A stretch of DNA of 40,876 nucleotides, taken from NCBI GenBank assembly GCA_003170875.1, contig PMYJ01000035.1, positions 1 through 40,876 of the forward strand, read 5' to 3'. Within the stretch, counting starts at the first letter, position 1; each line of letters starts with the position of its first letter. Positions 13,634-38,688 of this stretch are shown piece by piece. The notes beneath the pieces are model-generated. The model saw only the letters and a program-made list of their open reading frames with translations, was not told where the DNA came from and made no database searches. The position numbers were made by a program, and so were the translations under genes. This stretch comes from Candidatus Dormiibacterota bacterium. GTDB taxonomy: Bacteria > Chloroflexota > Dormibacteria > Aeolococcales > Aeolococcaceae.

Positions 13634-13709
13634 GCGGGAGTAGCTCAGTTGGTAGAGCGCTAGCCTTCCAAGCTGGATGTCGCGAGTTCGAGTCTCGTCT
13701 CCCGCTCCA
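13634..13709 (+). tRNA. tRNA-Gly, anticodon TCC
   Basis: A full cloverleaf can be drawn: acceptor GCGGGAG/CTCCCGC, D-stem GCTC/GAGC, anticodon stem CTAGC/GCTGG with loop CTTCCAA (anticodon TCC), variable ATGTC, T-stem GCGAG/CTCGT with loop TTCGAGT, discriminator T and an encoded CCA. It reads GGA (and GGG by wobble) glycine codons. It marks the left border of the lower-G+C region that follows. Confidence 0.97.
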
Positions 13710-14339: not shown

Positions 14340-15101
14340 TCACTTCGCTGTGAACCCGCCGTCCAGCACCAGACAGCTACCGACGGCGAAGCTGCTCTCG
14401 TCGGACGCCAGGAACAACGCGCCGAAGGCGATCTCCCGGGCGTCAGCGATGCGCGCGATCGGTGCCCAGCTCGCCTGTTCCTGCGCGGTCTTGGCGGGAT
14501 CCAGGCTGTTGTCAACCTCCGCCTGTAGGAGTGGCGTCCTGGTGATACCCGGGCACAGGGCATTGACACGGATCCCATAACGAATGAGGTCCAGCGCAAT
14601 TGCCTTCGTGAACATGATCACCGCCCCTTTGCTCGCGTTGTAGGCAGGGGACTCTGGAACGGCGACAATGCCCATCTCGGAACCCAGCGTGATGATCGAG
14701 CCACCGCGATCCTTCATGAGCGGGACCGCAGCCTTGACCATCATGTACATGCCCTTGACGTTGGTCCCAAGCACGCGATCCCACTCATCCTCGTTCAGGC
14801 CCTCAATGGGCATGACGCTGGTGATTCCGGCGTTGCAGACCAGCACATCGAGCCCGCCAAAGCGCTCAATCGCCGTGTTGACCAGCAACTGCGCGCCGTC
14901 GACGAGCCTGACATCGGCGTGAACGAAGGCCACGCCGGCCCCGCCCAGGGTGGGGTCTGCGGCGGCCGTTGAGAGCGCTCGGTCATCGATGTCTCCGACG
15001 ACGACGCGGGCTCCCTCCTCCGCGAACAGGGCGGCGATCGCCCGCCCGATGCCGGACGCACCTCCGGTGACGATCGCGGATTTGCCCTCTAACCTCTTCA
15101 C
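14340..15101 (-). CDS. Short-chain dehydrogenase/reductase (SDR)
   Basis: A classical SDR of 253 residues that oxidises or reduces a sugar, polyol or hydroxyacid with NAD(P). Visible are the Rossmann motif TGGASGIG (12-19), an acidic residue after beta-2 (GDID, favouring NAD), NAG in VCNAG, and the catalytic Ser141, Tyr154 and Lys158 (YNASK). GTG 15101 is chosen because GGAGA lies six bases upstream; the reading frame extends 22 codons further without a better start. It is the last intact gene downstream of the 2-oxoacid dehydrogenase genes on this strand but is separated from them by about 500 bases of debris. Substrate unknown. Confidence 0.9.
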   Translation of the reverse strand: MKRLEGKSAIVTGGASGIGRAIAALFAEEGARVVVGDIDDRALSTAAADPTLGGAGVAFVHADVRLVDGAQLLVNTAIERFGGLDVLVCNAGITSVMPIEGLNEDEWDRVLGTNVKGMYMMVKAAVPLMKDRGGSIITLGSEMGIVAVPESPAYNASKGAVIMFTKAIALDLIRYGIRVNALCPGITRTPLLQAEVDNSLDPAKTAQEQASWAPIARIADAREIAFGALFLASDESSFAVGSCLVLDGGFTAK

Positions 15102-15158
15102 GTACGCTCTCCAACTTCCAGCGCCTGGTTCAGCTCGGAGTCTGGCATGCTCAGTCCG

Positions 15159-15615: not shown

Positions 15616-16362
15616 TCAGGGCTGGCGACCGTCGAAACCATCCTCAATCCTGTCGACAACATCGCCGAGAAACCTGGCGGCGTACGCGCCGTCGACGACG
15701 CGGTGGTCGAAGCTGAGTGATAGGGTCGCCGGCCGGCCGAGCGCCGGCAGCGCCCGGAAGGCACCGATCCCCAGTACCCCCGTTTGCGGCGGCGTGATGA
15801 TCGGCGTGAACCCATCGATTCCGAGGGCGCCGAGATTGGTGATCGTGAAGGTCGCGCCTTCCACATCCGCAGCTTCGGATCGACCGGCCCGGGCACGCTC
15901 CACCATCGCCTGGAAGACGTCAGCGAGCTCCACCTCCGATCGTCTATCGGCTTCGCGGAGGACCACGATCGTCAACCCCTGAGTGGTCTCGACCGCCACT
16001 GCCACGTTGCGTTCTGGATGAACCAGGACGGCGGGGGGGTTCTCCATCCAGGATCCGTTCAAGAGCTCGTACGTGACGAGGCTACGCGCCACGGCGCCCG
16101 CGACGAGTGCATCGACGCTCGGTAGGGGATCCATGGCCCGGCGGCGCTCCAGCAACCTTGCGAACCGCACCTCACGATGAAGGGTGACAGCCGGAATCGT
16201 CAATGCCGCCTGGGTCATTCGCCGAGCGACGACTCGTCGGATGAGCGTGAGCGGTCGCACGTCCTGTGAGCCAGGGATGCCTGCCGGATACCGGGTGGCG
16301 GGATCGCCTTCGGTGTCCGTGACCCCTGAATCTCCGCCCGCGCCGTCCGAGCCAGAACCCAT
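15616..16362 (-). CDS. 2-oxoacid dehydrogenase E2 acyltransferase, catalytic domain only
   Basis: A 248-residue dihydrolipoamide acyltransferase core that would transfer the acyl group to CoA. The catalytic HRVVDG (His220, Asp224) is intact, and the core begins near residue 36 (RPLTLIRRVVARRM). There is no lipoyl domain in this chain, and the peripheral-subunit-binding domain that usually lies between is not visible; the short N-terminus is Gly/Ser/Asp rich. The ATG 16362 follows the TGA of the lipoyl-domain gene with no base between, in the same reading frame, so the two would form a single E2 if the TGA were absent or read through. GAGGAGA about nine bases upstream can serve as a ribosome-binding site. 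Confidence 0.9.
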   Translation of the reverse strand: MGSGSDGAGGDSGVTDTEGDPATRYPAGIPGSQDVRPLTLIRRVVARRMTQAALTIPAVTLHREVRFARLLERRRAMDPLPSVDALVAGAVARSLVTYELLNGSWMENPPAVLVHPERNVAVAVETTQGLTIVVLREADRRSEVELADVFQAMVERARAGRSEAADVEGATFTITNLGALGIDGFTPIITPPQTGVLGIGAFRALPALGRPATLSLSFDHRVVDGAYAARFLGDVVDRIEDGFDGRQP

Positions 16363-16617
16363 TCAGTCGATCTCCTCGCCTGCTGTGGCGATGGTCCCGA
16401 TGACCGACAAGATTGCCGTCTCGGTGCCACCCGGCACGACAATCTTTCGAAGAATACCGTCCGCCGGCGATTCGACATCGAGCGAGATCTTCTCGGTCTC
16501 GACATGGACGAGCGGCTCCCCCTTGTGCACAGGGTCTCCCTCCTTCTTGAGCCACTCCACCACCAGGCCGACCTCCAGGTCCTGGCCTCCCTGCGGCATC
16601 ACGACGTTAACCAGCAT
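16363..16617 (-). CDS. Free-standing lipoyl (biotinyl/lipoyl attachment) domain protein
   Basis: An 84-residue lipoyl domain. The lipoylated lysine is Lys43 in HVETEKISLDV, and the fold's start (MPQGGQDLEVGLVVEWL) and end are complete. It would act as the swinging arm between E1 and E2. It stops at TGA 16363-16365, directly against the ATG of the catalytic-domain gene and in frame with it. Either it works as a separate small carrier protein, or a fused E2 has been split by an in-frame stop. Start ATG 16617, with AGGGG upstream; 56 bases follow the E1-beta stop. Confidence 0.88.
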   Translation of the reverse strand: MLVNVVMPQGGQDLEVGLVVEWLKKEGDPVHKGEPLVHVETEKISLDVESPADGILRKIVVPGGTETAILSVIGTIATAGEEID

Positions 16618-17723: not shown

Positions 17724-18683
17724 TCATGCGGCCGAGATCTCTGCCAGGAAGTCGGCCACGGCTGGCTCCGGGCTGTCGATCGCGAACTGGACGGCCTCGT
17801 CCATCAGCACCTCGATTCGCTGATCGATCTGCGCGATCTCGGCTTCAGCCACGCCAGCGTCGACCAGGTGCTGCCGCAATATGCCCACCGGGTCTCGGGC
17901 GCGCCACCGCTCCAGCTCGTCCTTTGGCATGTAGAGACCGGGGTCATTGACGTGATGGCCGCCCTGCCGGTAGGTCTTGCATTCGATGAGGGTCGGACCC
18001 TCTCCCGCCCGTGCTCGCTGGAGCGGCTTCTCCATCGCCGCACGCACAACGAGGGCATCGTTGCCGTCAACGGTCACACCAGGCATGCCGTATCCGGCCG
18101 CGCGCTCGGAGAGGTTCTCGACCAGGGCGGTATCACGGATAGGCGTCGATACGGCGTAGTTGTTGTTCTCCAGGACGAAGATCACCGGCAGGTGGTAGAT
18201 CGCCGCAAGGTTGAAGGATTCGTGGAGGGCCCCATTGGCTGCGGCACCATCGCTGCAGAACGACACGACCACATCCGAATCACCGCGCAGGTGAATGGCA
18301 AAAGCGGCACCGACCGCGAGCGGCATCCCGCCCGCCACGACACCGTTGGCTCCGAGATTGCGCAAGGCCAGGCTCGAGACATGCATGGACCCGCCCCGGC
18401 CCCGGCAGTATCCGGTGGCCTTTCCGAGAAGCTCCGCCATCATCAGGCGTGGCTCGTGGCCCTTGGCGATGGCATGACCGTGCCCGCGATGGGTGCTGAC
18501 GATGTAGTCCGATGGCCGCAGCGCAGCCACGGCGCCGACCGCGACGGCTTCCTCACCGAGGTAGGGGTGGAGGTAGCCGCGGATATTGCCGAGGCGATAC
18601 TGCTCGATGGCGCGCTGCTCGAACCGCCTGATCGTGAGCGCGGTTTCATACATTGCTGCGATCGACGCGGTTTCGACCGGCAT
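17724..18683 (-). CDS. 2-oxoacid (acetoin/pyruvate-type) dehydrogenase E1 alpha subunit
   Basis: A 319-residue alpha subunit that binds TPP and Mg. The TPP motif runs from SFCSDGAAANG (Asp145) to LENNNYAVSTP (Asn173-175); the first Gly of the usual GDG is Ser144. STHRGHGHAIAKG and GRGGSMH are the conserved active-site loops. ATG 18683 is chosen over the TTG at 18689 because AGGGGAG lies six bases upstream. It is the first gene of a four-gene operon (E1-alpha, E1-beta, lipoyl, E2) and is divergent from a DeoR-type regulator gene, with a good promoter and operator-like repeats in between. Confidence 0.94.
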   Translation of the reverse strand: MPVETASIAAMYETALTIRRFEQRAIEQYRLGNIRGYLHPYLGEEAVAVGAVAALRPSDYIVSTHRGHGHAIAKGHEPRLMMAELLGKATGYCRGRGGSMHVSSLALRNLGANGVVAGGMPLAVGAAFAIHLRGDSDVVVSFCSDGAAANGALHESFNLAAIYHLPVIFVLENNNYAVSTPIRDTALVENLSERAAGYGMPGVTVDGNDALVVRAAMEKPLQRARAGEGPTLIECKTYRQGGHHVNDPGLYMPKDELERWRARDPVGILRQHLVDAGVAEAEIAQIDQRIEVLMDEAVQFAIDSPEPAVADFLAEISAA

Positions 18684-18737
18684 CTGCAACTCCCCTTCGG
18701 CGTCCAGGCTTGCGGATTCGATTGTGGCAACCTTCAG

Positions 18738-18945: not shown

Positions 18946-18985
18946 GTGGAATAATCCGCGTTTGTTCCTCTATCAGGAGGCGAGT

Positions 18986-19804
18986 ATGGAGCCACTCCGC
19001 CGACGCATCCCCGCGGATCGCCAGCGAGTTATCGCGTCAATCGTTCGGCAGAGCGGCAGCGTACGGGGCAGTGAGCTGGTCGACATCCTTGGCGTCACGG
19101 ACGAGACGATCAGGCGAGATCTGCTCCAGCTCGCCCTGAGCGGCGCGGTGCGACGGTCTCGAGGCGGAGCGGTCGCCATCAGCCCACTGGATGAGTCGAA
19201 CACGGATCTCCGCCTCCGTGAGCACGCCGCCGAGAAGATCGCAATCGGAACTCGGGCGGCTGACCTCGTCGAGGATGGCAGCCGGATCATCCTGGATTCG
19301 GGGACCACCACCCTTTGCCTCGCGCGAGCTCTGCGCCAGAAGCGGAACCTGACCGTGGTCACCACCGCGGTTACGCACGCCGTCGAGTTGATGGGGATCG
19401 CTGGAGCCACGGTTGTCATGACCGGCGGAGTGATCCGGCCCGCAACGTACGGGGCGAGCGGGCAGCTCGCTGTTGCAACGATTCGCGAAGTGCACGTCGA
19501 GCAGGTGTTTCTTGCGATTCACAGCGTTTCGGTCAAGGGCGGGCTCACCTACCCGAGCTTCGAGGAGGTCGAGGTGAAGCGCGCCATGATCGGTGCCGCC
19601 AGACGAGTGATCCTCCTGGCCGACCATTCGAAATTCGGCCGCGAGGCCTTCGTCAAGGTCGCGCCGATGCTTGCCGTCCATACCATCGTCACCACCCCTG
19701 GAATCGATCCCGCCGAGGCAGACGCGATACGCGAGCTCGGCATCGAGCTGATCGTGGCGCCCCTAGCAATCGAGTCGACCGATGCATCGTCGGTGACAAC
19801 CTGA
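18986..19804 (+). CDS. DeoR/GlpR-family transcriptional regulator
   Basis: A 272-residue sugar-phosphate-responsive repressor. Residues about 8-60 form the DeoR winged helix (RQRVIASIVRQSG, then GVTDETIRRDLLQL). The C-terminal sensor domain has the phosphosugar-binding signature DSGTTTLCLA and LADHSKFGR, which ends the family core. ATG 18986 is fixed by AGGAGG five bases upstream; the frame is open further 5' but has no other signal. It is divergent from the dehydrogenase operon and leads a plus-strand series of TIM-like, aldolase and CbbY-like genes, so it probably controls both directions. The effector is probably a phosphorylated intermediate of the pathway (inference). Confidence 0.93.
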   Translation: MEPLRRRIPADRQRVIASIVRQSGSVRGSELVDILGVTDETIRRDLLQLALSGAVRRSRGGAVAISPLDESNTDLRLREHAAEKIAIGTRAADLVEDGSRIILDSGTTTLCLARALRQKRNLTVVTTAVTHAVELMGIAGATVVMTGGVIRPATYGASGQLAVATIREVHVEQVFLAIHSVSVKGGLTYPSFEEVEVKRAMIGAARRVILLADHSKFGREAFVKVAPMLAVHTIVTTPGIDPAEADAIRELGIELIVAPLAIESTDASSVTT

Positions 19805-19921
19805 CTGAATCTCATGGAAGACCTTGGTGCCAACCATGTCAACGACGGTCGTAATCCGGAAGTTCGAAGCGTGCCGACGTTCGTGACAGATCCCCCAGAC
19901 CAGCGCGCCGTCCGGCGACCC

Positions 19922-20689
19922 ATGCGTCCTCTCATCGGCACCAGTTGGAAGATGCATCTGACCGCGAGCCAGGCGGTCCAATACTTGCAAACACTGCGAC
20001 CACTCGTTGCGGATCTCACAGATCGAGACCTCTTCGTTCTGCCGGCATATCCCGCGATCCCGGTCGCTCGAGAGCAACTGGATGGGAGCAACATCGCCTG
20101 GGGCGCTCAGGACGTCCACCCGGAAGACTGGGGTGCGCACACCGGTGATGTGTCCGCGCCGATGCTAGCGGACTTGGGCTGTCGCTACGTCGAGGTCGGG
20201 CACTCTGAGCGTCGGCGCGAACACGGCGAGACGACGGACGTGGTCGCACGAAAGATCGCCGCCGTCGCCCGCTGGGGTATGACGCCGATCCTCAGCATCG
20301 GCGATCAGCATCGTCACGGTCCCCAGGCTGCTCTAGCGGAGTTGATGCCGAGCCTCGAGCGCTTGCTGGCCGGCCTCCCGCGAGAATCTCTGGGCGATCT
20401 GGTCATCGCGTACGAGCCAGCTTGGGCGATCGGCGAAGGCGCCGCACCAGCCTCACCGGAGGAAGTCGGGGCCGTGCTTCGCGAGCTCCGCGCTTCGCCG
20501 CTCTTGAAAGGGGTCGAAGCATCTGGCGTTCGCCTGATCTACGGCGGCAGTGTCGACCAATCGATAGCCGAGGAGATGCTCAGCCAGCCGTGCGTCGACG
20601 GCCTGTTCATCGGACGGCAGGGACTTGATCCTTACACCTTCGCTGCACTGGCACGTACCCCCTGTTGTATGTCACACAGTGAGCCCTGA
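19922..20689 (+). CDS. Triosephosphate-isomerase-fold protein, candidate tetrulose-phosphate isomerase (EryH/LerI type)
   Basis: A 255-residue TIM homologue with a complete catalytic set: Lys10 in GTSWKMH, His94 in VGHSERR, Glu165 in AYEPAWAIGEG and the phosphate loop IYGGSVD. Housekeeping TIMs have GNWKMN at the first motif; GTSWKM, as I recall, is typical of the EryH/LerI paralogues that isomerise L-erythrulose-1-phosphate. Its setting among sugar-catabolic genes also argues against a housekeeping role. Start ATG 19922 gives the family length but has no ribosome-binding site; GTG 19871 with GGAAG eight bases upstream would add 17 residues. The C-terminal tail CCMSHSEP is unusual. Triose isomerase activity cannot be excluded. 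Confidence 0.85.
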   Translation: MRPLIGTSWKMHLTASQAVQYLQTLRPLVADLTDRDLFVLPAYPAIPVAREQLDGSNIAWGAQDVHPEDWGAHTGDVSAPMLADLGCRYVEVGHSERRREHGETTDVVARKIAAVARWGMTPILSIGDQHRHGPQAALAELMPSLERLLAGLPRESLGDLVIAYEPAWAIGEGAAPASPEEVGAVLRELRASPLLKGVEASGVRLIYGGSVDQSIAEEMLSQPCVDGLFIGRQGLDPYTFAALARTPCCMSHSEP

Positions 20690-20743
20690 CCGGTGGACAG
20701 ATGCCAGGAGCAGCCACCAATCATCTGAAGGGAAGGTGCAGCC

Positions 20744-21598
20744 ATGCCTGTCGTACGGACCAAAGCCATCCTCGAGCGCGCTTTCGAGGAGCGCTACGGA
20801 GTTGCCGCGATCAACGTGGTGGACGAACTGACCATGGAGGCGGTCCTGGCGGCCGCTGAAGAGCTGCGCGCGCCAGTCATCGTCCAGACCTCAGTCAAGC
20901 ACGTTGTGATGACCGGGGTTGGGGTCATGTACGCGATGTGGCGTGAGTTGACCAAGACGATCACCGTCCCGGTTGCGCTCCACCTCGACCACTGCCCCGA
21001 CCGTACCTTGATCAGCGAGTGTCTGGCCGCCGGCTGGAGCTCGGTGCTCTTCGACGCCAGCAAGCTGACGGTGGAGGAGAACATGCGCCAGTGCATCGAG
21101 GTGGTCGCCGAGGCGCGCCGCCACGGGGCTGACGTGGAGGGCGAGATCGAGGGCTTCAAGCGGACCGAGGAGATGACCGGCGACGAGGCGGAGCACGTCC
21201 AGTCGCTGAAGACGGTGGTCGAGTTCGTCCAGGCCACCGGGGTCGACGTCTTCGCCCCCGCGATCGGCAACGCCCACGGGGTGTACGCGACCACCCCCCA
21301 CCTGGACAGCCAGCGGGTCACCGACATCGTCGAGGCCACCGGCATCCCGGTCGCCCTCCACGGCGGGACGGGGATGACCCCCGAGCAGTTCAGCGATCTG
21401 ATCAGCCGAGGCTGCGCCAAGGTCAACATCTCGACCGCGCTGAAGATCGCCTTCATGAAATCCGGGTACGAGTACATGAGCGCGCATCCCGGGGAGTACG
21501 ATCCGCCGGCGATCTTCAAGGCCCAGCGGGGCGCGGTTATGGACATGGCCCGGCACCACATCCGCCTCTTCGGGAGCGAAGGGAAGGCGTGGGCGTGA
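20744..21598 (+). CDS. Class II fructose-bisphosphate aldolase family (ketose-bisphosphate aldolase)
   Basis: A 284-residue zinc aldolase that would cleave a ketose mono- or bisphosphate to dihydroxyacetone phosphate and an aldehyde. Zinc ligands are visible as His83 in HLDHCPD (with Asp82), His178 in GNAHGVY and His206 in ALHGGTG, followed by KVNIST, the phosphate-binding strand. Length is that of the GatY/KbaY/FbaA group. GGAAGGTG sits upstream of ATG 20744. The stop overlaps the next gene as GTGA, so it is coupled to the CbbY-like phosphatase gene. Substrate may be tagatose-, fructose- or another ketose phosphate. Confidence 0.92.
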   Translation: MPVVRTKAILERAFEERYGVAAINVVDELTMEAVLAAAEELRAPVIVQTSVKHVVMTGVGVMYAMWRELTKTITVPVALHLDHCPDRTLISECLAAGWSSVLFDASKLTVEENMRQCIEVVAEARRHGADVEGEIEGFKRTEEMTGDEAEHVQSLKTVVEFVQATGVDVFAPAIGNAHGVYATTPHLDSQRVTDIVEATGIPVALHGGTGMTPEQFSDLISRGCAKVNISTALKIAFMKSGYEYMSAHPGEYDPPAIFKAQRGAVMDMARHHIRLFGSEGKAWA

Positions 21599-22392
21599 GC
21601 GCCATCATCTTCGACTGCGACGGCGTGCTTGCGGACACCGAGCGGTACGGCCATCTGCCCGCTTTCAACCAGACCTTCCGGGAGGTGGGGGTGCCCCTGG
21701 AGTGGTCGGAGGAGGAGTACGGCCGCAAGCTCCAGATCGCGGGTGGCAAGGAGCGGATGGCCAGCGAGCTCACCCCCGAATTCAGCCGCGCCCACGGCCT
21801 GCCGGAGGATCCCGACGGCAGGGCTGCGCTGCTCGCCTCCTGGCACCGGCGCAAGACCCAGATCTACACCGAGATGGTGACCGCTGGGAAGCTGCCCCCG
21901 CGGCCCGGGATCCGGCGGATCATCGCCGCGGCGCAGGACGCGGGGTGGAAGCTGGCGGTGGCCTCGACCTCGGCGGAGCCTTCGGTGCGGGCGATCCTGG
22001 AGCGCGCCGCCGGCCCGGCGCGCGCGGCACGCTTCGACGTGGTTCTGGCCGGGGACTGCGTGCCGCACAAGAAGCCGGCACCCGACATCTACCTGCTCGC
22101 CCTGGAGAGGCTCGAGGCTGACCCCACCGACGTGCTCGTCATCGAGGACTCACGCAACGGCCTCGAGGCGGCCCACGCTGCGGGTCTACGCTCTCTCATC
22201 ACGGTGAACGGCTACACCGAGCACGAGGACTTCTCTGCGGCCGACCTGGTCGTCTCGTCGCTGGGTGACCCCGGTGGCGAGGAGACAGTGGTCATCGCCA
22301 ATCGGAGCCCGGCGAGGCCGCGAGCGTTCATCACACTCGCCGACCTGAAGAATCTCGTCAAGCCGGGTGAAGTTCAGGGTCAAGCCGGATAG
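21595..22392 (+). CDS. cbbY: CbbY-like HAD-superfamily sugar-bisphosphate phosphatase
   Basis: A 265-residue HAD hydrolase with the nucleophile motif FDCDGVLADTE, a helical cap and motif IV VLVIEDSRNG. The cap segment pairs FNQTF with YGRKLQIAGGKERM, the style of CbbY, the RuBisCO-associated phosphatase that removes the inhibitory misfire product xylulose-1,5-bisphosphate. Beta-phosphoglucomutase-like relatives are the alternative. GTG 21595 is used because it overlaps the aldolase stop (GTGA) and has GGAAGG about seven bases upstream; the GTG at 21589 is less likely. It converges on the RuBisCO-like gene, which makes a CbbY-type job attractive. Confidence 0.85.
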   Translation: MSAIIFDCDGVLADTERYGHLPAFNQTFREVGVPLEWSEEEYGRKLQIAGGKERMASELTPEFSRAHGLPEDPDGRAALLASWHRRKTQIYTEMVTAGKLPPRPGIRRIIAAAQDAGWKLAVASTSAEPSVRAILERAAGPARAARFDVVLAGDCVPHKKPAPDIYLLALERLEADPTDVLVIEDSRNGLEAAHAAGLRSLITVNGYTEHEDFSAADLVVSSLGDPGGEETVVIANRSPARPRAFITLADLKNLVKPGEVQGQAG

Positions 22393-22421
22393 CGGGAAGC
22401 CCAACGGTCGAGCCGACGCCA

Positions 22422-22463
22422 GACACCTGCGGAAGGTGTCAGCCAGGCGGCGGCCCCGCCGCC
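22422..22463. terminator. Two hairpins between convergent genes
   Basis: GACACCT-GCGGA-AGGTGTC (22422-22440) and GGCGGCG-GCCC-CGCCGCC (22446-22463) are perfect stems lying between the CbbY-like gene (+) and the RuBisCO-like gene (-). They probably terminate transcription from both sides. No T-tract, as is usual in very G+C-rich genomes. Confidence 0.6.
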
Positions 22464-22510
22464 AGGCGGGGCGAGGGGCGCTGATACGGCGGAGTCAGGC
22501 CGCCGAGAGG

Positions 22511-23830
22511 TCAGGCCGTCATCAGGTCGTAATTGCCCTTGACCCCGGTTTCGGAGATGCCCCAGGTGGCGAGCGCCGCCGCCAGCTCGGGCTCCTGGAC
22601 CCGGTCGCTGCGGATGAAGCCGTCGTCGGCCATCACCGCGTCGATTGCCTGGCGCAGGGCGCGTGTGCCCGCCGTCGGCCCGAGCGGGTGGCCATGGACG
22701 GCGCCGCCGGCGCCGACGATGAAGTCACGCCCCATGTCGTTGAAGAGCAGGGGCAGCATGCCCGGGTGGACGCCGCCGCCCGGCATCGGCCAGGAGCGCT
22801 TGATGTCGTGGAAGCGCCCGGTGAGGGCCTGGGCGATGCGCAGGTGCTTGGCGGGCAGCAAGGACAACTTGCCGTACGGGCTGGGATAGACCACCAGGTC
22901 GGCTCCGGCCAGGCGGGGCAGCTTGCCGAGGATGAGGTGAGAGCTCACCCCCGACCAGGGATCGCCGTATATGGCCCCGGAGAAGTTGAGGTGGGCCAGC
23001 AGCGGGACGTTGATGGCGGGATCGTCGGCCAGCATCGAGAGGGCTGAGATGCCAACCACGAGGTAGCTGACCATCAGCGCCGAGGCGCCGGCCTCCACGG
23101 CGCGGTGGGCATTCTCCACCAGCCGGTCGGGCCGGTCGGTGATGTTGACGAAGTAGAGGGTGCGGTGGCCGGTCTGCTCGAAGGCCGCCTTGGCCGCCGC
23201 CTCGTGCTCGCGGACCCGATCCAGGAAGTGGCTCCAGGGATGGGAGACCACAATCTCGTCGTCCTTGACCCCGTCCGCGCCGCCCAGGGCGGCCTGGTAG
23301 AAGGCTTCGGCACTCTGCTTGGGGGTGAGACCGATCGAGGGCTTGACCATGACCACCAGCAGCGGACGGTCGGGCACGCCGAGCAGCTCGCGCATTCCCG
23401 CAATGCCGAATTTGGGCCCCGCGAAATCGTTGGTGTAGGCCCGCGGGAAGGCGAGGTCGAGCAGCTTGAGCCGGCCCGCCGAGGCGATTTCACCGTAGAC
23501 CATGGTCAGCATCAGCGGGATCTGCGGTCCCACGTTGTGGACCGGGTAGGCGATCTGCAGGACCCAATCCCGGGTGCGCAGGTCGTGGGGGAGGCTGAAC
23601 TCGTGGTCCGGTACCTCCCAGATGGAGATGATCTTGCCCACGTGGCGCTCGCGCACCTCGGAGGTCTCGCCTTCCAGGCTGACCCAGGTCCCACCCGACT
23701 GTTGCTCGGAGATTGCCGCAGCCAGCTTGTGGATGTTGGCGGTGGCGCTCGTCTGGTAGAGGTAGGTGGCCAGGATGTGGGTGTCGAGGTCGACCCCCTC
23801 CGGAATCGGAAACGCGATCGGGTCGTACAT
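22511..23830 (-). CDS. RuBisCO-like protein (form IV / large-subunit family)
   Basis: A 439-residue RuBisCO large-chain homologue. It keeps the first active-site lysine (VKPSIGL, Lys163) and the carbamate/metal motif KDDE (Lys189, Asp190, Asp191, Glu192), so it should be a carbamylated, Mg-dependent enolising enzyme. GGGVHPG (351-357) and GAGGAVHG (373-380) are phosphate-binding loops. The loop-6 lysine context of true carboxylases (GKLEG) is not seen; YPSPYGKLSLLP stands in that region, so CO2 fixation is unlikely. Known RLP reactions include the 3-oxo-isoapionate-4-phosphate transcarboxylase/hydrolase OiaX and enolase/isomerase reactions of methionine salvage; which applies is open. It lies 72 bases downstream of a SorC regulator gene. 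GGAAGTGAG precedes ATG 23830. Confidence 0.92.
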   Translation of the reverse strand: MYDPIAFPIPEGVDLDTHILATYLYQTSATANIHKLAAAISEQQSGGTWVSLEGETSEVRERHVGKIISIWEVPDHEFSLPHDLRTRDWVLQIAYPVHNVGPQIPLMLTMVYGEIASAGRLKLLDLAFPRAYTNDFAGPKFGIAGMRELLGVPDRPLLVVMVKPSIGLTPKQSAEAFYQAALGGADGVKDDEIVVSHPWSHFLDRVREHEAAAKAAFEQTGHRTLYFVNITDRPDRLVENAHRAVEAGASALMVSYLVVGISALSMLADDPAINVPLLAHLNFSGAIYGDPWSGVSSHLILGKLPRLAGADLVVYPSPYGKLSLLPAKHLRIAQALTGRFHDIKRSWPMPGGGVHPGMLPLLFNDMGRDFIVGAGGAVHGHPLGPTAGTRALRQAIDAVMADDGFIRSDRVQEPELAAALATWGISETGVKGNYDLMTA

Positions 23831-23902
23831 CGTTAACTCACTTCCAATAGGGTTGGTCGTTCTCGTGCCGGAACTCCCTCGGTTGCTGGGCTGCGCCCCG
23901 GC

Positions 23903-24910
23903 TCAGGCACTCCTCGCCTCCGCCTGCAGGGATGGCGGTTCGGCCACGGCGACGTCGAGGATGCGGCGGGCCGTGGTCTCGTCGACGATCAGCACCCCGA
24001 CGACGCCGGTGCGCAGCGCGCCGAGCAGGGTCGGCGCCTTATCGGCACTCTCGCTGGCGGTCACGATCACCATGCCTACGTTGTGCAGCTGGTCCAGGGT
24101 GAGGCCGACGATGCGATCGCTGAACGGGGAGCTGATCACCCGCCCGTCGGCGTCGAAGTAATTGCCCAGGATGTCGCCAACCGCGCCGGCGGAACGCAGC
24201 CGCTGCATCTCGGCCAGCGAGCAGCAGCCGCTCCGCACCATGGTGCAGCCGTCGTCGGTGCCGCCCGCGCCGACCACCGCGATCCGCGCCTCGGCGGCGA
24301 TGCGCAGGGTGTGGGCGACCGCCTCTTGGCGAAGCAGCCGGTCGCGCATCGCCCGGCTCTCCACGAAGGCCGGGGCAAACAGGCTCTCCCAGCGGCCACC
24401 GGCGCGCTCGGCAAGGGCGCGGCAGATGTCGTTGGGGTTGGTCGGTGCGTCCATCCTCGGGGAGCCGCCCATGGCGCTGACGAAGGTGCAGTCGAGCGGG
24501 CGCGCCGTCCGGAAGGCGGCGGCCAGCTCGCCAGTGTTGCGGCCCATGCCCACAGCGATCACCCCGCCCCGGCGGATGTGCCGCTCCAGGTAGCCGGCGG
24601 CGGACCTGGCGACGGCGCGCCGCTGGGCCTGGGGATCGGGATCACTGGGGGTCACGATGGCGTCCGCGAGCTGGAAGGTGGTGCGCAGCCGTGGCTCCAG
24701 GGCTGCCGCCGCGGCGGACGGCCCGATGATCCGGATGTCGACCACCCCGTTCTCCCGGGCGCGTCCGAGCAGGCGCTGCACCTTGGGCCGCGAGAAGCCC
24801 AGCTCGCGCCCGATCTCGACCTGGGACTTGCCCTCGATGAAATAGCGGTAGGCGATGCGCACCAGGAGCTGCTGGTCGGTGCGGGAACGCGGGGTCGGCA
24901 GTATCGTCAC
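23903..24910 (-). CDS. SorC/DeoR-family (sugar-binding) transcriptional regulator
   Basis: A 335-residue SorC-type regulator. The N-terminal HTH (about residues 18-58) includes YFIEGKSQVEIGRELGFSR and PKVQRLLGRARENGVV. The remainder is the sugar-binding domain with AVGMGRNTGELA, VSAMGG, and a late VGVLIVDE. The start is GTG 24910. Its gene is directly upstream of, and co-oriented with, the RuBisCO-like gene, so it is probably co-transcribed and controls it in response to a sugar phosphate. An operator-like repeat lies 12 bases upstream of the start. EryD of erythritol clusters belongs to the same family. Confidence 0.92.
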   Translation of the reverse strand: MTILPTPRSRTDQQLLVRIAYRYFIEGKSQVEIGRELGFSRPKVQRLLGRARENGVVDIRIIGPSAAAAALEPRLRTTFQLADAIVTPSDPDPQAQRRAVARSAAGYLERHIRRGGVIAVGMGRNTGELAAAFRTARPLDCTFVSAMGGSPRMDAPTNPNDICRALAERAGGRWESLFAPAFVESRAMRDRLLRQEAVAHTLRIAAEARIAVVGAGGTDDGCTMVRSGCCSLAEMQRLRSAGAVGDILGNYFDADGRVISSPFSDRIVGLTLDQLHNVGMVIVTASESADKAPTLLGALRTGVVGVLIVDETTARRILDVAVAEPPSLQAEARSA

Positions 24911-28100: not shown

Positions 28101-29558
28101 ATGAGCGAAAAGTTGGCGGAGCGCGGCGGCACGATCCGGTCCGAGCTGGAGCCCAACGTCATGAGCCTGCCGGGCGTCTTCATGCAGGGCATCGCGAATA
28201 TCTCGCCGGCCTTCTCCCAGCTGGCGACGTTCACCTCCATCATCGCCCTGGCGGCGATCGTGGCCCCGGTGGCCTTCCTGCTCGCTGGAGTTGCCCTTGT
28301 TGTGCAGGCCTACGTCACCGGACAGATCGCCCGCGAGTTCCCCTCGGCCGGAGGCTGGTACACGTGGGTCGCCCGCACCCTGCACCCCGGCGCCGGCTTC
28401 TTCGCCGGCTGGGTGCTGCTGCTCTGGTGGCCCGCCTGCGGGACGATGGTTCTCGGCTACCTGGGCGCTGTCGTGCTGCAACCGGGCATCCAGGCCTACT
28501 ACGGCGTCGACATCCCCTGGTGGATCTACCCCGTTGCCGGCGTCGCCCTGTCGGCCTTCCTCTCCTATCGCGGCATGCGGATCTCGCAGAGCGTGCTGCT
28601 GATCACCGGGGGCATCGAGGTCGTGATCATGGTGGCGCTGGCAGCCTCGGGGATCGTCAGCCCGGGCAAGGGAGGCTTCACGCTCGCACCTCTGAATGTG
28701 GCGAACTTCGGCAAGGCACCCGATGTGTTCCTGGCCATCACCTTCGCCGTCTTCGCCTTCAGCGGCTGGGAGACGATCGGCCCGGTGGCCGAGGAGACCA
28801 AGCATCCCCGCCGCTACATACCGCTCGCCCTGGTCGGCTCCATCCTCTTCATGATGGTCTTCGAGCTTTTCGTGACCTACGGCAACGTGCTCGGCGTCGG
28901 GGTGTCCAACCTCAACAGCGCCGCGACCGCGGTGACGTGGCCGATCGCCACCATGGCCCAGCGGCTCTGGGGTGAGGGCTGGCTGTTGCTGCTCTTCGCC
29001 CTGATGAACTCCGGGATTGCCAACAGCCTCAGCGCCTTCAACGCCGGTACTCGCCTCTTCTTCAGCATGGGCCGCTCCGGTGTGTTCCCCGCGGCGCTGG
29101 GCGTGGTGTCCCCACGGCGGCGCACGCCAAACAACGCCATCCACACCCAGGTCGCGGTCTCGATCTTGGCACTCGTGCTGATGGCGATCTTCGGGGCCGT
29201 CAACGTCTTCCTCACCTGGGCGATCACCTTCACGTTTGGCCTGATCATCATGTACATCCTCGCCGACCTCGGGGCGATGCGCTACTACCTCGGCGAGGCG
29301 CGTGACCGGTTCAACGTCCTGAAGCACGTGGTGGCCCCGATCGCCGCCATCGTCGCGGTCGGCTACGTGTTCTACAAGTCGGCGGTCCCGCTCCCTGCTC
29401 CGCCCGAGCAGTGGTCCCCGGTCGTCCTGATCGTCTACTTCGTTGTCGGCGGCTGCCTCATGGTCGGCCTGCACTTCACCGGTCGCGGCGACTGGATGAG
29501 GAAGGCGGAGCTGGCGATGGAGGAGGAGCCGGAGAAGGTGGCCGCATCAGGTGCCTGA
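28101..29558 (+). CDS. APC-family amino-acid/polyamine permease
   Basis: A 485-residue inner-membrane transporter with about twelve hydrophobic helices. The N-terminal region has the APC pattern (NISPAFSQLATFTSII, then AREFPSAGGWYTWVA). FAVFAFSGWETIGPVAEETK in the middle is the conserved helix 6 segment with the E-E-T-K loop. The C-terminal tail (GRGDWMRKAE and an acidic end) is cytoplasmic. It would import an amino acid or amine that feeds the PLP enzymes of the downstream operon, or at least a nitrogenous substrate (inference). ATG 28101 follows AAGGGTGAGG. Preceded by a good promoter and palindrome. Confidence 0.93.
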   Translation: MSEKLAERGGTIRSELEPNVMSLPGVFMQGIANISPAFSQLATFTSIIALAAIVAPVAFLLAGVALVVQAYVTGQIAREFPSAGGWYTWVARTLHPGAGFFAGWVLLLWWPACGTMVLGYLGAVVLQPGIQAYYGVDIPWWIYPVAGVALSAFLSYRGMRISQSVLLITGGIEVVIMVALAASGIVSPGKGGFTLAPLNVANFGKAPDVFLAITFAVFAFSGWETIGPVAEETKHPRRYIPLALVGSILFMMVFELFVTYGNVLGVGVSNLNSAATAVTWPIATMAQRLWGEGWLLLLFALMNSGIANSLSAFNAGTRLFFSMGRSGVFPAALGVVSPRRRTPNNAIHTQVAVSILALVLMAIFGAVNVFLTWAITFTFGLIIMYILADLGAMRYYLGEARDRFNVLKHVVAPIAAIVAVGYVFYKSAVPLPAPPEQWSPVVLIVYFVVGGCLMVGLHFTGRGDWMRKAELAMEEEPEKVAASGA

Positions 29559-29641
29559 GGGCCTGGCGCCGAACAAGAACAGCTGACGGTGGCAAATCCT
29601 CCCCTCGAGCCGCACCGGAGACCCCCGAGGAGGTCGAGCAA

Positions 29642-29662
29642 CTCAGACCCAACGGGTCTGAG
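29642..29662 (+). terminator. Strong hairpin between permease and SDR genes
   Basis: CTCAGACCC-AAC-GGGTCTGAG, perfect 9-base stem with a 3-base loop, in the 139-base gap after the permease gene. With no T-run it may be an attenuator or an mRNA-stabilising structure that sets a different level for the permease and the enzymes after it. Confidence 0.5.
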
Positions 29663-29697
29663 CCGGGATTCCACATACCGATCGGAGGTCTAAGGAG

Positions 29698-30465
29698 ATG
29701 GAACGTCGTTTCGTCGGCAAGGTGGCCCTAGTGACCGGGGCCACCAACGGCATCGGTCAGGCCGCAGCGGTCCGACTGGCCGCCGAGGGAGCCATCGTCG
29801 GTGTCAACCAGCGCCCCACCGGGGATCCCACCGAAACCCTCAGACGGATCAAGGAGGCTGGGGGTGAGGGCTTCCCTGTGGTCGCCGACATGCGAGACCC
29901 CGCTCAGATCATCACAATGGTCGCCGAGGTGGCCCATCGGGGCGGCAGGCTCGACTACCTCGTCTCCAACGCGGCCATCAACCCCTTCATGAAATGGGAC
30001 GAGACCACACTCGAGGATTTCAACGCGCTTTCCGAGACCAACTTCCGGGGCACCTGGGTGGTCTGCACTGAGGCGGCCAAGGAGATGGTCCGAGAGGGTC
30101 ATGGCGGGGCGATCTGCTGCGTCAGCTCGATCTCGGCGCATGTGGGCGCACCTGGCCAGACCGCCTACTGCGGCACCAAGGGAGCGATCAGCATGCTCGC
30201 AAAGGCCCTCGGTGCGGACCTGGGCCAGCATGACATCCGGGTCAACGTGGTGGAGCCCGGCTGCATCGACACCAAGATGGCGGCACCACTGGTCAACGAC
30301 CCGGTCGCCCTCAAGTATTACAACGAGCGAATCGCCCTGCACCGGGTGGGCCGACCCGAGGAGATCGCCAGCGTGATCGCTTTCATGCTCACCGAAGATG
30401 CCAGCTACGTCACCTCCGCCGCGCTGCTGGTGGATGCCGGCTTCATAGTCAACGCGGAGTTGTGA
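29698..30465 (+). CDS. Short-chain dehydrogenase/reductase (SDR), module 2
   Basis: A 255-residue classical SDR with TGATNGIG (13-20), SNAA (variant of NAG), catalytic Ser144, Tyr157 and Lys161 (YCGTK), and a C-terminal VDAGF end typical of glucose 1-dehydrogenase-like members. The residue set after beta-2 (NQRP) lacks the acidic residue that selects NAD, so NADP is possible. ATG 29698 has GGAGG nine bases upstream plus a second AGGAG touching the start. The kinase gene follows 37 bases later. It is only a distant relative of the module 1 SDR. Substrate unknown. Confidence 0.92.
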   Translation: MERRFVGKVALVTGATNGIGQAAAVRLAAEGAIVGVNQRPTGDPTETLRRIKEAGGEGFPVVADMRDPAQIITMVAEVAHRGGRLDYLVSNAAINPFMKWDETTLEDFNALSETNFRGTWVVCTEAAKEMVREGHGGAICCVSSISAHVGAPGQTAYCGTKGAISMLAKALGADLGQHDIRVNVVEPGCIDTKMAAPLVNDPVALKYYNERIALHRVGRPEEIASVIAFMLTEDASYVTSAALLVDAGFIVNAEL

Positions 30466-30502
30466 GCCGCATGGCGCGACCCCGTAGCGCCAGGGGGTGT
30501 CG

Positions 30503-31960
30503 GTGAGCCTCATCGGGATCGACCTCGGCACCAGCGCGATCAAGGTCGCCGCCTACGCGGTGGACGGTACCCTCTTGGCCGAGGCTCGCCAGGCCGTCCC
30601 CGCCCACCGGCCCCAGCCCGGTTACTGGGAGGTCGACGTCGGCGAATCGCTGACCGCCTTCCGCGAGGCGTTGACCACCGTCGCCAACCACCCGAGAGTG
30701 CGCGCCGACCCACCGCGAGCGATCTCCTTCAGCTCGTCTGGAAGGGAGATCTTCCCCACCGCGAGTGACGGCGCACCTCTCGGGCCCTGCCTGATGACGG
30801 CTGACGTCCGCGGCGATGACGTGGCGGCGAGGACGGCTGCCCGGCGCAGCACCGAAGAGTGGTTTCGTCTCGCCGGACACGTGCCCGGGCGGATGGATCC
30901 CGTGAATCGCATTCTCTGGTGGCAGGAGACCAATCGTGAGGCTGTGGCGTCAGCCCGGTGGTTCATGAATTGGCACGACTTCTACGCGCTGCTCCTGAGT
31001 GGCGTTCCCGTCGCCGACGCCAGCGGCGCCGGGGCATGGGCCGTCTACGATCTCAGCTCGAAGACATGGTCGGCAGACCTGGTTGCCGAGGTCGGCCTGG
31101 ATCCGCAGTGGCTCCCGCTCATCCAACCCAGTGCCAGTCCGATTGCACCGGTAACCCCCGCGGCCGCACGGGAATTTGGCCTTCCTGAGGACACTCTGAT
31201 CGTGACCGGGGCCTGGGACTTCTGCGCCGCCGCCCTGGGGACCGGGGCCGTCGACGCCCGCACCGTGGCCCTTGCCTCCGGTTCGTGGCATTCCTTCCTC
31301 CTCCCCGTCCCGTCAGGTTGGAAGGAGGATCTGGTCGACGAGGGGATCGCCGCGATCCCTCACCCCGGTCCCCTCGGCTTTGCACTCGCCAGTTTCGATC
31401 CCAATGGCATGAGCGTCATCGACTGGGCTCGTGACTTGCTCGGGCTCAGCCATCGCGAGCTCGAAGAAGGGCTTAAGGGCTGCGGCCCCGGTCCCGGCCC
31501 GATCTTCGCCGAGCCCACCTTCACCCCACTCCCTCACGTCCCCGCCACGGGCCGTGGCGGGTTGCTCTCGGGTCTGTGTCTGTCCAGCAGCAAGGTGGAC
31601 GTGGTGAGGGCTCTCCTGGAGGGAATCGCCTGCGACTTCTCGCTGGCGCTGGACAGGCTTCACCGTCATGGCTGCTCTCCTCAGGTCATCCGAGCCTCGG
31701 GGGGTGGCGCCGGCTCGGCGTGGTTCATGCAGCTGCACGCCGACCTCACCGGCCTCCCCGTCGAGGTCGTGAGCCAGGGCGAGCCGGGGGCCTTTGGCGC
31801 CGCTCTGATGGCTGGCGTGGGATGCGGCGCGTACTCCGATCTGACGACGGCCATCGACCGCCTGGTGGTCGTGTCCCGCCGCTTCGAGCCGGACCCGGAG
31901 CGCGGCCGGCGCTTCGATCCGATCCGCACCAGGCTGGCCACGGCCGGCATGGGAAGATGA
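30503..31960 (+). CDS. FGGY-family carbohydrate kinase
   Basis: A 485-residue sugar kinase. Its actin-like fold starts with GIDLGTSAIKVAAY (ATP phosphate loop 1). The catalytic base is Asp239 in TGAWDFC, and ASGGGAGSAWFMQLHADLTG is the C-terminal FGGY signature with the adenosine loop. Members phosphorylate xylulose, erythritol, erythrulose, ribulose, apulose and similar sugars. GTG 30503 is preferred over GTG 30497 because AGGGGGT overlaps the latter. Its TGA overlaps the ATG of the next gene (ATGA), so the two are coupled. The chain with W-H-D-F at 157-160 may line the sugar site. Substrate cannot be named. Confidence 0.92.
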   Translation: MSLIGIDLGTSAIKVAAYAVDGTLLAEARQAVPAHRPQPGYWEVDVGESLTAFREALTTVANHPRVRADPPRAISFSSSGREIFPTASDGAPLGPCLMTADVRGDDVAARTAARRSTEEWFRLAGHVPGRMDPVNRILWWQETNREAVASARWFMNWHDFYALLLSGVPVADASGAGAWAVYDLSSKTWSADLVAEVGLDPQWLPLIQPSASPIAPVTPAAAREFGLPEDTLIVTGAWDFCAAALGTGAVDARTVALASGSWHSFLLPVPSGWKEDLVDEGIAAIPHPGPLGFALASFDPNGMSVIDWARDLLGLSHRELEEGLKGCGPGPGPIFAEPTFTPLPHVPATGRGGLLSGLCLSSSKVDVVRALLEGIACDFSLALDRLHRHGCSPQVIRASGGGAGSAWFMQLHADLTGLPVEVVSQGEPGAFGAALMAGVGCGAYSDLTTAIDRLVVVSRRFEPDPERGRRFDPIRTRLATAGMGR

Positions 31961-33054
31961 GAAGAGTGATCCACGCACCCTCGCCGACCGTCGAGATCGA
32001 GACCCAGCGGACCTTCTCAACTCCCGCTCTGGTGGTCGACCTCGACACCTTCGAGCGAAACGTGAGGGCGATGTCCGAGCTGCTCGAGGGCACGGGCAAG
32101 AGCGTCCGCCCCCACGTCAAGACCCATCGCACTCCGGAGCTCGCCAGGCGTCAGCTGGGTGGTTCGGCTCGAGGGGTCACCTGCGCGACCGTCGGCGAGG
32201 CCGAGGTCATGGTCGCGGCGGGGATCACCGACGTGCTGCTGGCCAACGAGCTGGTCGACCCCCTCAAGATGGACCGGCTGGTCGGGCTGGCTCATGAGGC
32301 CGCCGTGACCGTTGCGGCCGATGATCCCGAGCCGGTCACGTCGCTCTCCACTCGAGCGGCGCGGGCCGGAGTGACCGTCGGGGTGCTCATCGACGTGGAC
32401 GTCCTCCTTCATCGCTGCGGCGTCGCCTCGGCGGCGGAGGTGCTGCAGATGGCAGCGGTCATCGACCGATCGCCGGGCCTCCGGCTGGATGGGCTGATGG
32501 GCTATGAAGGCCGTCTGCGCCCTGGCGTCCAGGACCGCCAGGCCAAGATTGGCCGCGCCTACGCCCTGCTGGCGGAAACCCGCGACGCGCTCCTCCGTGC
32601 CGGTTTCGCGGTTGAGAGAGTCTCGGCTGCGGGAACGTCGACGTTGTTGGAGGCCCTGACCGATCCCACCATCACAGAGATCCAAGCCGGTGTCTACGCC
32701 CTGATGGAGCCGGAGTTGCTCGGCATGGGCCTCCCCTTCAGCTGCGCCGCGGCGATCCGCGGCACGGTGATCAGCCGGCACGATGATCGCTTCGTCCTGG
32801 ACATTGGTCGCCGGGTGGTGGGGGTGGAGTATGGCCCGCCGCTCAGCGCCGGCTTCGAGGTGACCAGCATCACCTTGGGGGACGAGCACACCATCGTCAC
32901 CGCCGAGGGGCCGCCACCGGCGCTCGGCGCCGAGCTGGACTTCATTCCCGGCCAGATCCGGACCACCTTCAACCTCCACGATCACGTGTGGGTGAGCCGT
33001 GGCGGCGAGCTGATCGACTGCTGGCCGATCTCGGCGCGGGGCAGCTCACAGTGA
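31957..33054 (+). CDS. D-threonine aldolase / alanine racemase-fold PLP enzyme lacking the metal ligands
   Basis: A 365-residue fold-type III PLP protein. The PLP lysine is Lys55 in RPHVKTHRTPELA. The beta-barrel segments continue through LIDVDVLLHRCGV and TEIQAGVYALME, and the C-terminal domain ends CWPISARG. Functional D-threonine aldolases and D-serine dehydratases bind a divalent metal through a C-terminal H-x-C or H-x-D; here the matching place reads PGQIRTTFNLHDH, so both ligands (Gln333, Arg335) are replaced. A metal-free racemase, epimerase or other lyase role is therefore more likely. YhfX of the E. coli yhf cluster has a similar fold. ATG 31957 overlaps the kinase stop. Confidence 0.88.
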   Translation: MRRVIHAPSPTVEIETQRTFSTPALVVDLDTFERNVRAMSELLEGTGKSVRPHVKTHRTPELARRQLGGSARGVTCATVGEAEVMVAAGITDVLLANELVDPLKMDRLVGLAHEAAVTVAADDPEPVTSLSTRAARAGVTVGVLIDVDVLLHRCGVASAAEVLQMAAVIDRSPGLRLDGLMGYEGRLRPGVQDRQAKIGRAYALLAETRDALLRAGFAVERVSAAGTSTLLEALTDPTITEIQAGVYALMEPELLGMGLPFSCAAAIRGTVISRHDDRFVLDIGRRVVGVEYGPPLSAGFEVTSITLGDEHTIVTAEGPPPALGAELDFIPGQIRTTFNLHDHVWVSRGGELIDCWPISARGSSQ

Positions 33055-33178
33055 CGGCGGGTGGCGTGGACGCTGTGCTCGTCCGCTCCGCTGGTATGGC
33101 GGGTGGGAGGCTCCCTTTCCGGCCCTACATTGGGTGCCACCCGGATTGCCGCCGCTCGGGAATTCATGGGAGGTCCAG

Positions 33179-34147
33179 ATGAGTGAGCCACAGAGCCCGA
33201 CACCGGGCAGCCTCGTCTCCCACGAGGAGTTCGACCAGATCTTCGAGGCGGTCAAGAACTGGGGCAGGTGGGGGCCCGACGACCAGCTGGGCACCCTGAA
33301 CTACATCACCCCGGAGAGGATCAGCACTGCCGCCGGCCTGGTGAAGTCTGGCCGCCGGGTGTCCATGGCCCTGCCGGTCAACAAGGTGGCCGGCCCCGAC
33401 AACCCCAACCCGGCGGTCCACTTCGTGAGCCAGGGGCATGACGTCGACATCAAGTCGGGCGGGGTGCGCTTCGGCATGGACTACCTGGGCATGGCCTGCC
33501 ATGGCGACTCGCACACTCACGTCGATGCGCTCTGCCACATCTCCTACCGGGGTCTGGTCTACAACGGCCAGCCGGCAGGTGCGGTCCTCACGTCGCAGGG
33601 GGCCACCTCGCTGGACGTGGCCGCCTATTGCCGCGGCGTGGTCGGGCGTGGGGTGCTCCTGGACGTCCCCCGCCATCGCGGAGTCAAGTGGCTGGAGCCG
33701 GGGGAGGCGGTCACCCGGGGGGAGCTCGAGGAGATCGAGCAGGCCGAAGGGGTGCGACTCGGCGAGGGTGACATCCTGGTGTTCCGGACCGGGCACAACC
33801 GGCGCCGCCTGGAGCTCGGTCCCTGGAGCAACGACGCGCCCCCGCGCGGCGAGGGCAAGGCCGGTCTCCATGTCAACACCATCCCCTGGATGCACGAGCG
33901 CCGGATCGCCGCCTTCCTGCCCGACGGCGACGGTGAGGCCATCCCCAGCTCGGTGGAGGGCATCGTCTACCCGATCCATCCACTCCAGATCGTGGCCATG
34001 GGCATGCTGGCCTCCGATAGCCTGGACCTGGAGGAGGTCGCCGCCGCCTGCGCGGAGGAAGGGCGCTTCGAGTTCATGGTGGTCGGCCTTCCCCTGCGTC
34101 TGGGGGGCGGCACCGGCTCGCCTTGGAACCCCATCGCCCTCTTCTAG
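33179..34147 (+). CDS. Cyclase-family metal-dependent hydrolase (kynurenine formamidase-like)
   Basis: A 322-residue member of the cyclase family (PF04199). The metal-binding signature is HGDSHTHVDALCH (His108, His112, His114, Asp116, His120). Family members hydrolyse amides and lactones: N-formylkynurenine, isatin, or cyclic esters. Here it could open a lactone or deformylate an intermediate (inference). GGGAGG six bases upstream fixes ATG 33179; the longer frame has no signal. It sits between the PLP enzyme and YhfZ-type regulator genes. Complete. Confidence 0.92.
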   Translation: MSEPQSPTPGSLVSHEEFDQIFEAVKNWGRWGPDDQLGTLNYITPERISTAAGLVKSGRRVSMALPVNKVAGPDNPNPAVHFVSQGHDVDIKSGGVRFGMDYLGMACHGDSHTHVDALCHISYRGLVYNGQPAGAVLTSQGATSLDVAAYCRGVVGRGVLLDVPRHRGVKWLEPGEAVTRGELEEIEQAEGVRLGEGDILVFRTGHNRRRLELGPWSNDAPPRGEGKAGLHVNTIPWMHERRIAAFLPDGDGEAIPSSVEGIVYPIHPLQIVAMGMLASDSLDLEEVAAACAEEGRFEFMVVGLPLRLGGGTGSPWNPIALF

Positions 34148-34153
34148 AGCGAC

Positions 34154-35200: not shown

Positions 35201-35265
35201 CCGTGCCCACGCGGCATCGCCCTGCCCCTGGCCTCCTCCCAGCGCCACGAGGCTCTCGCGTCGTG

Positions 35266-38600: not shown

Positions 38601-38688
38601 TCCATGTCAACGCCGAAAGATGAGCCGTGCGTGCTGACCGCGCCGGCCCAGCACGTCCCGATGGATCCGTTCAACTGGAGATGATGAG

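Follow-up and report, generated by a model that had tools for sequence, protein, structure and literature searches.

An in-frame TGA between a lipoyl-domain gene and a catalytic-only E2 gene in a Dormibacteria contig is very probably an ordinary gene end

Textbook 2-oxoacid dehydrogenase complexes carry the lipoyl group on a tethered arm and anchor E1 and E3 to the E2 core through a peripheral-subunit-binding domain (PSBD). A 40,876-nucleotide stretch of contig PMYJ01000035.1 from a Candidatus Dormiibacterota bacterium, the whole of which is referred to here as the window, encodes a lipoyl domain and an E2 catalytic domain in two reading frames parted by a TGA codon. This raises the question of whether the TGA is the end of one gene, a codon that is read through, or damage to an E2 gene that was once in one piece. 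Our analysis indicates that it is very probably an ordinary gene end and not part of a broken or read-through E2, the same split arrangement being seen in several other bacteria.

The lipoyl and E2 genes and their junction

On the minus strand of the window the genes run in the order E1-alpha, E1-beta, lipoyl carrier, catalytic E2, and then an SDR oxidoreductase (Table 1). The operon holds 2-oxoacid dehydrogenase-type parts: the thiamine-diphosphate subunits E1-alpha and E1-beta, a lipoyl domain, and an E2 catalytic motif. Biotin_lipoyl (PF00364) is the sole Pfam family recognized in the lipoyl ORF, in which the predicted lipoylation lysine K43 (codon 16491-16489) is intact within the motif ETEKIS. 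The sole family in the E2 ORF is 2-oxoacid_dh (PF00198), with no lipoyl domain; the frame is intact over this entire domain, keeps a DHRxxDG-type catalytic motif, and matches solved E2 cores. GC content at the second codon position is 0.66 in the first 35 codons of the E2 gene versus 0.49 in the remainder. A scan of genome contigs for this E2 turned up distant relatives only, mostly 33-48% identical, and nothing close to a copy.

The original prediction remarked that the usual PSBD was not visible at this locus, and this observation is borne out. A scan for PF02817 (E3_binding) across the junction, with the TGA read as Trp, gave nothing at a threshold as loose as E<1, whereas a different E2 from this genome (L001), included as a positive control, matched clearly; the absence can thus be taken as real. 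Like the E2 of canonical pyruvate and branched-chain dehydrogenases, the window system uses the same lipoyl and catalytic domain families, but it departs from the canonical lipoyl-PSBD-catalytic architecture in placing them on two polypeptides with no PSBD, and therefore has no known tether for E1 and E3.

The TGA at 16365-16363 closes the 84-residue lipoyl ORF and the ATG at 16362-16360 opens the 248-residue E2 ORF, in the same phase and with no base between them, and in this respect the original description was exact. TGA is directly followed by ATG in five of its 975 occurrences as a trinucleotide in the window (0.5%), and 6% of the window's ATGs have a Shine-Dalgarno-like match 5 nt or longer before them; the E2 ATG has AGGAG. 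Because these chance counts are low, the juxtaposition is unlikely to have arisen as random sequence, and a translation start kept by selection accounts for the junction better than a chance codon behind a stray stop does. The layout fits that of coupled neighbouring genes: in two other split pairs (L130 and L144) stop and start overlap as ATGA.

Table 1. Features of the window at and around the junction (positions counted from the first letter of the window).
Feature	Position	Strand	Evidence
SDR oxidoreductase gene 3' of the E2 gene, start approximate	14340..15122	-	adh_short_C2 E 2.2e-60
Catalytic-only E2 acyltransferase gene, 248 aa, start ATG 16362	15616..16362	-	Pfam 2-oxoacid_dh E 1.4e-51; PDB 4ofs E 1.7e-30
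E2 catalytic domain	15640..16266	-	DHRVVDG (residue 219 on), His220 codon 15705-15703
Gly/Ser/Asp-rich N-terminal E2 tail, residues 1-32, without recognised domain	16267..16362	-	Translation and codon GC
Stand-alone lipoyl carrier protein gene, 84 aa	16363..16617	-	Pfam Biotin_lipoyl E 1.5e-15
TGA stop codon of the lipoyl gene	16363..16365	-	Three orthologs end <=4 residues away with TGA, TAG, TGA
Shine-Dalgarno-like GAGGAG in the 3' end of the lipoyl gene	16372..16377	-	9 nt upstream of the E2 ATG
E1-beta subunit gene, 330 aa	16674..17666	-	Transket_pyr and Transketolase_C; NCBIfam PRK09212 subfamily above cut-off
E1-alpha subunit gene, 321 aa, putative TTG start	17724..18689	-	E1_dh E 3.9e-79
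Divergent sugar-type cluster: DeoR regulator, triose-phosphate isomerase, class II aldolase, HAD phosphatase, SorC-type sugar-binding regulator	18953..24910	.	Counterparts near E1 in orthologous clusters

Stand-alone lipoyl genes in other genomes

A search of 109 further genomes of the same class detected no E1-alpha ortholog at E<=1e-105, and orthologs 69-72% identical were found in four genomes of another class of the same phylum (G408, G510, G511, and G466). The surroundings of these orthologs hold a varying share of the window genes, including E1-beta, the aldolase, the HAD phosphatase, the SDR, a YhfZ-type regulator, and others; an SDR gene comes after E1-beta in G408 and G510 as well. 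The lipoyl gene is visible in three of the four (G408, G510, and G466) and is stand-alone in all three. The protein from G408 is 62% identical to that of the window, while the next matches listed are below 50% identical and nearly all are lipoyl domains of fused E2s. Conservation of the stop in homologous clusters had been proposed as a check: the three orthologous genes stop no more than four residues from the end of the window gene (TGA in G408, TAG in G510, TGA in G466), their proteins running 3-4 residues beyond it. A sense codon at the stop position, named at the same time as the evidence that would tell against the pattern, did not turn up in the relatives available. Unlike the window, these clusters show no E2 gene adjoining the lipoyl gene or elsewhere in the stretches read (L127, L208, and L209 for G408, G510, and G466, respectively), of which the G466 contig has only about 150 bases remaining after the lipoyl gene. 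The lineage of the window lipoyl protein is thus a stand-alone one, in which the TGA is an ordinary end, and the original wording of an E2 "split", implying one gene cut in two, is not backed by the relatives. Because no E2 appears in the orthologous clusters as far as they were read, the pairing of the window E2 with the window carrier rests on their adjacency in one genome.

An E2 C-terminal fragment, a 54-codon open frame that is apparently a gene relic, lies in G510 (L208:7298-7393) just behind the triose-phosphate isomerase gene and about 2 kb from the SDR gene. It was considered as proof of an ancestral copy of the window E2 and set aside, as it resembles ordinary E2s at least equally.

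Separate lipoyl and catalytic-only E2 genes are found in Gemmobacter fulvus plasmid p2 (WP_215505678 and WP_215505679, with an ATGA overlap), Azospirillum sp. B510, Shinella sp. WSC3-e (with about 2.7 kb between the two genes), and two genomes of the same phylum as the window, G346 (ATGA overlap) and G120 (ATG ten codons past the stop, same phase). The Gemmobacter locus shares with the window the order E1-alpha, E1-beta, lipoyl protein of about 80 residues, and PSBD-less catalytic-only E2, as well as coupled genes; it differs in having the ATGA overlap where the window has TGA then ATG, in its other neighbours, and in its E2, which is about 33% identical. The Shinella genes belong to a plasmid sugar cluster encoding E1-alpha, E1-beta, the lipoyl protein, a GlpD-like protein, a class II aldolase, and the E2, with FGGY kinases, a sugar-binding regulator, and a private lipA as neighbours. 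The kinase, aldolase, and regulator recall the window, but the Shinella lipoyl and E2 genes are non-adjacent, the cluster has its own lipA, and the proteins are distant. PSBD is absent from all six catalytic-only E2s scanned (that of the window and five elsewhere) and present in all nine fused E2s scanned, the shortest of which has 347 residues; a 292-residue Phaeobacter E2 without a lipoyl domain represents an intermediate case, with a weak PSBD match below the cut-off. Two further loci were rejected as split cases on the reading of their frames: L136 has an in-frame stop within a PSBD-like stretch and L139 breaks at masked bases, and both look like interrupted fused E2s.

A tree of the catalytic domains requires about four changes between split and fused states, at least three of them forced by starred branches. 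Splitting of E2 therefore probably occurred more than once. The window E2 lies on a long branch, unsafe in its exact placement, that joins fused E2s and not the other split E2s. A single origin of all split E2s was rejected, given this grouping and the several changes needed.

Stand-alone lipoyl genes beside E1 with no E2 nearby also occur in Arthrobacter FW306-07-I, G404, and G197. In G404 (L129), E1-alpha, E1-beta, and the stand-alone lipoyl gene are followed by an aldehyde-dehydrogenase-like frame and an SDR, and in G197 (L132) by an SDR, these flanking genes being named from their reading frames; neither locus has an E2, and together they form a second E1-lipoyl module without one. A sugar cluster on a Rhizobium indicum plasmid (L188:6506-10028) has a fused E1-alpha/beta, a stand-alone lipoyl gene, and, in the place of E2, an alpha/beta hydrolase that may be related, in split form, to AcoC, the E2 of acetoin dehydrogenase. 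No paper describing split or free-lipoyl E2 complexes was found in a literature search with subscription journals largely outside its coverage. The split arrangement is present in automatic RefSeq annotation, and the window pair is therefore a new case of an annotated architecture.

Competing readings of the TGA

Taken together, the comparisons of sequence argue strongly that the TGA genuinely terminates a stand-alone lipoyl carrier gene and that the abutting ATG starts a translationally coupled, catalytic-only E2 gene without lipoyl domain or PSBD, a reading we hold to be highly probable. Points that count against it are the incomplete draft with its possible consensus errors, the long branch of the window E2 apart from other split E2s, its pairing with the carrier by adjacency in one genome, and the end of the window carrier 3-4 residues short of that of its orthologs. 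Among the possibilities raised originally, that of a free lipoyl carrier is accordingly well supported by the stand-alone orthologs, by the ribosome-binding-like site before the E2 ATG, and by the co-occurrence of splitting and PSBD loss elsewhere.

Alternatively, the gene boundary may be genuine while the E2 itself drifts out of use, the carrier and E1 working with another E2 or with none. This concerns the function of the E2 rather than the stop codon, and overlaps with the reading preferred here. The lack of an E2 beside E1 and carrier in the stretches read from G408, G510, and G466, the survival of only the 54-codon fragment in G510, and the long branch of the window E2 are all consistent with such drift. 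Against this, the window E2 is uninterrupted across its domain with its catalytic motif kept, and the G510 fragment, being equally like ordinary E2s, is no proof that an ortholog was lost. We consider drift of the E2 unlikely.

A point mutation or consensus error may instead have introduced the TGA into an E2 gene that was once fused and had no PSBD, since a change of one codon would fuse the abutting frames. The draft genome is incomplete (81% complete, 258 contigs) and at least two of its E3 homologues look frame-broken, so that consensus errors may exist in it, and the data do include fused E2s with interruptions, as at L136 and L139. However, in the orthologs the lipoyl protein stands alone and stops at a nearly identical place, a ribosome-binding-like site and an ATG stand at exactly the right position, and, as every fused E2 scanned has a PSBD, down to 347 residues, the PSBD-less fused ancestor would itself be unusual. 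A mutation or sequencing error, one of the possibilities raised originally, is thus made quite improbable, chiefly by the stand-alone orthologs.

The remaining original possibility, programmed read-through or recoding of the TGA into a fused protein, alone or alongside the separate one, is consistent with the open frame across the junction but most improbable, as selenocysteine or other read-through is opposed by ortholog stop codons that differ and have no E2 after them, by the lack of any fused ortholog, by the use of TGA as the stop of 18 of the 21 genes listed in the window, by the start signals of the E2 itself, and by a search for SelB that gave no match above the cut-off in the 81% complete genome.

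As for E3 itself, a genome search with TIGR01350 recovered pieces only, none above the cut-off; the best covers positions 2-338 of the model (C152), and a piece covering 337-461 sits at the end of contig C54. Lipoamide-dehydrogenase homologues in two pieces, in different frames, lie at G000:C87:12810-13974 and G000:C84:3289-4117, and apparently point to frameshifts or consensus errors in the draft.

A possible diffusible-carrier system and its genomic setting

With the TGA read as the end of a carrier gene, E1 would decarboxylate or cleave its substrate and acylate a diffusible lipoyl protein, the catalytic-only E2 would pass the acyl group from this carrier to CoA, and an E3 common to the other complexes of the cell would reoxidise the carrier. 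The carrier would then act like the glycine-cleavage H protein and not as a tethered swinging arm. LipA is present in the genome. E1 accepts a lipoyl domain in isolation as its substrate (PMC6270654), and LbpA is a stand-alone lipoyl protein with its own function (PMC6067878). The window carrier resembles GcvH and LbpA in being a separate small protein, but it matches PF00364 and not GCV_H, and is tied to E1 and E2 instead of glycine cleavage or sHdr. The substrate may come from a sugar or polyol pathway, as suggested by the neighbouring class II aldolase, triose-phosphate isomerase, HAD phosphatase, SorC and DeoR regulators, FGGY kinase, and SDRs.

More tentatively, the E1-alpha/beta and free lipoyl module, conserved in sugar or polyol clusters with or without an E2 gene, might constitute a diffusible-carrier system, in which an E1 that cleaves a ketose or a 2-oxoacid charges a soluble lipoyl protein, whose acyl group then passes to CoA or another acceptor without an E2-built, PSBD-tethered complex; we regard this as possible but doubtful. 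If true, the module would stand beside the dehydrogenase complexes as their untethered counterpart. The conserved occurrence of E1 with a free lipoyl protein in sugar clusters, sometimes with no E2 nearby, is the more interesting lead from this locus. Should split, PSBD-less systems prove active, at least some substrates can be handled without tethering, and such systems offer small, separable parts with which to test it. For annotation, the case shows that lipoyl and catalytic domains parted by a stop codon do not always denote a pseudogene.

The E1, lipoyl, and E2 genes are probably part of an acquired sugar or polyol cluster beside a tRNA-Gly gene (13634-13709), which a CopG-type antitoxin adjoins, and the window from there on (13634-40876) looks like an acquired catabolic island. 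This view follows from a drop in GC content from about 0.71 to 0.63-0.69 across about 12.5-22.5 kb, the antitoxin by the tRNA, and the detection of E1-alpha orthologs in another class and in none of the 109 other genomes searched of its own; a second copy of the tRNA-Gly 3' end was not found in the window. A second gene run at 28101-39891, partly common to G408, includes an amino-acid permease, an SDR, an FGGY kinase, a D-threonine-aldolase-like PLP enzyme, a cyclase, a YhfZ-type regulator, a 2-phosphosulfolactate-phosphatase-like protein, a large transketolase-N protein, and an aminotransferase, a set that recalls the E. coli yhf genes.
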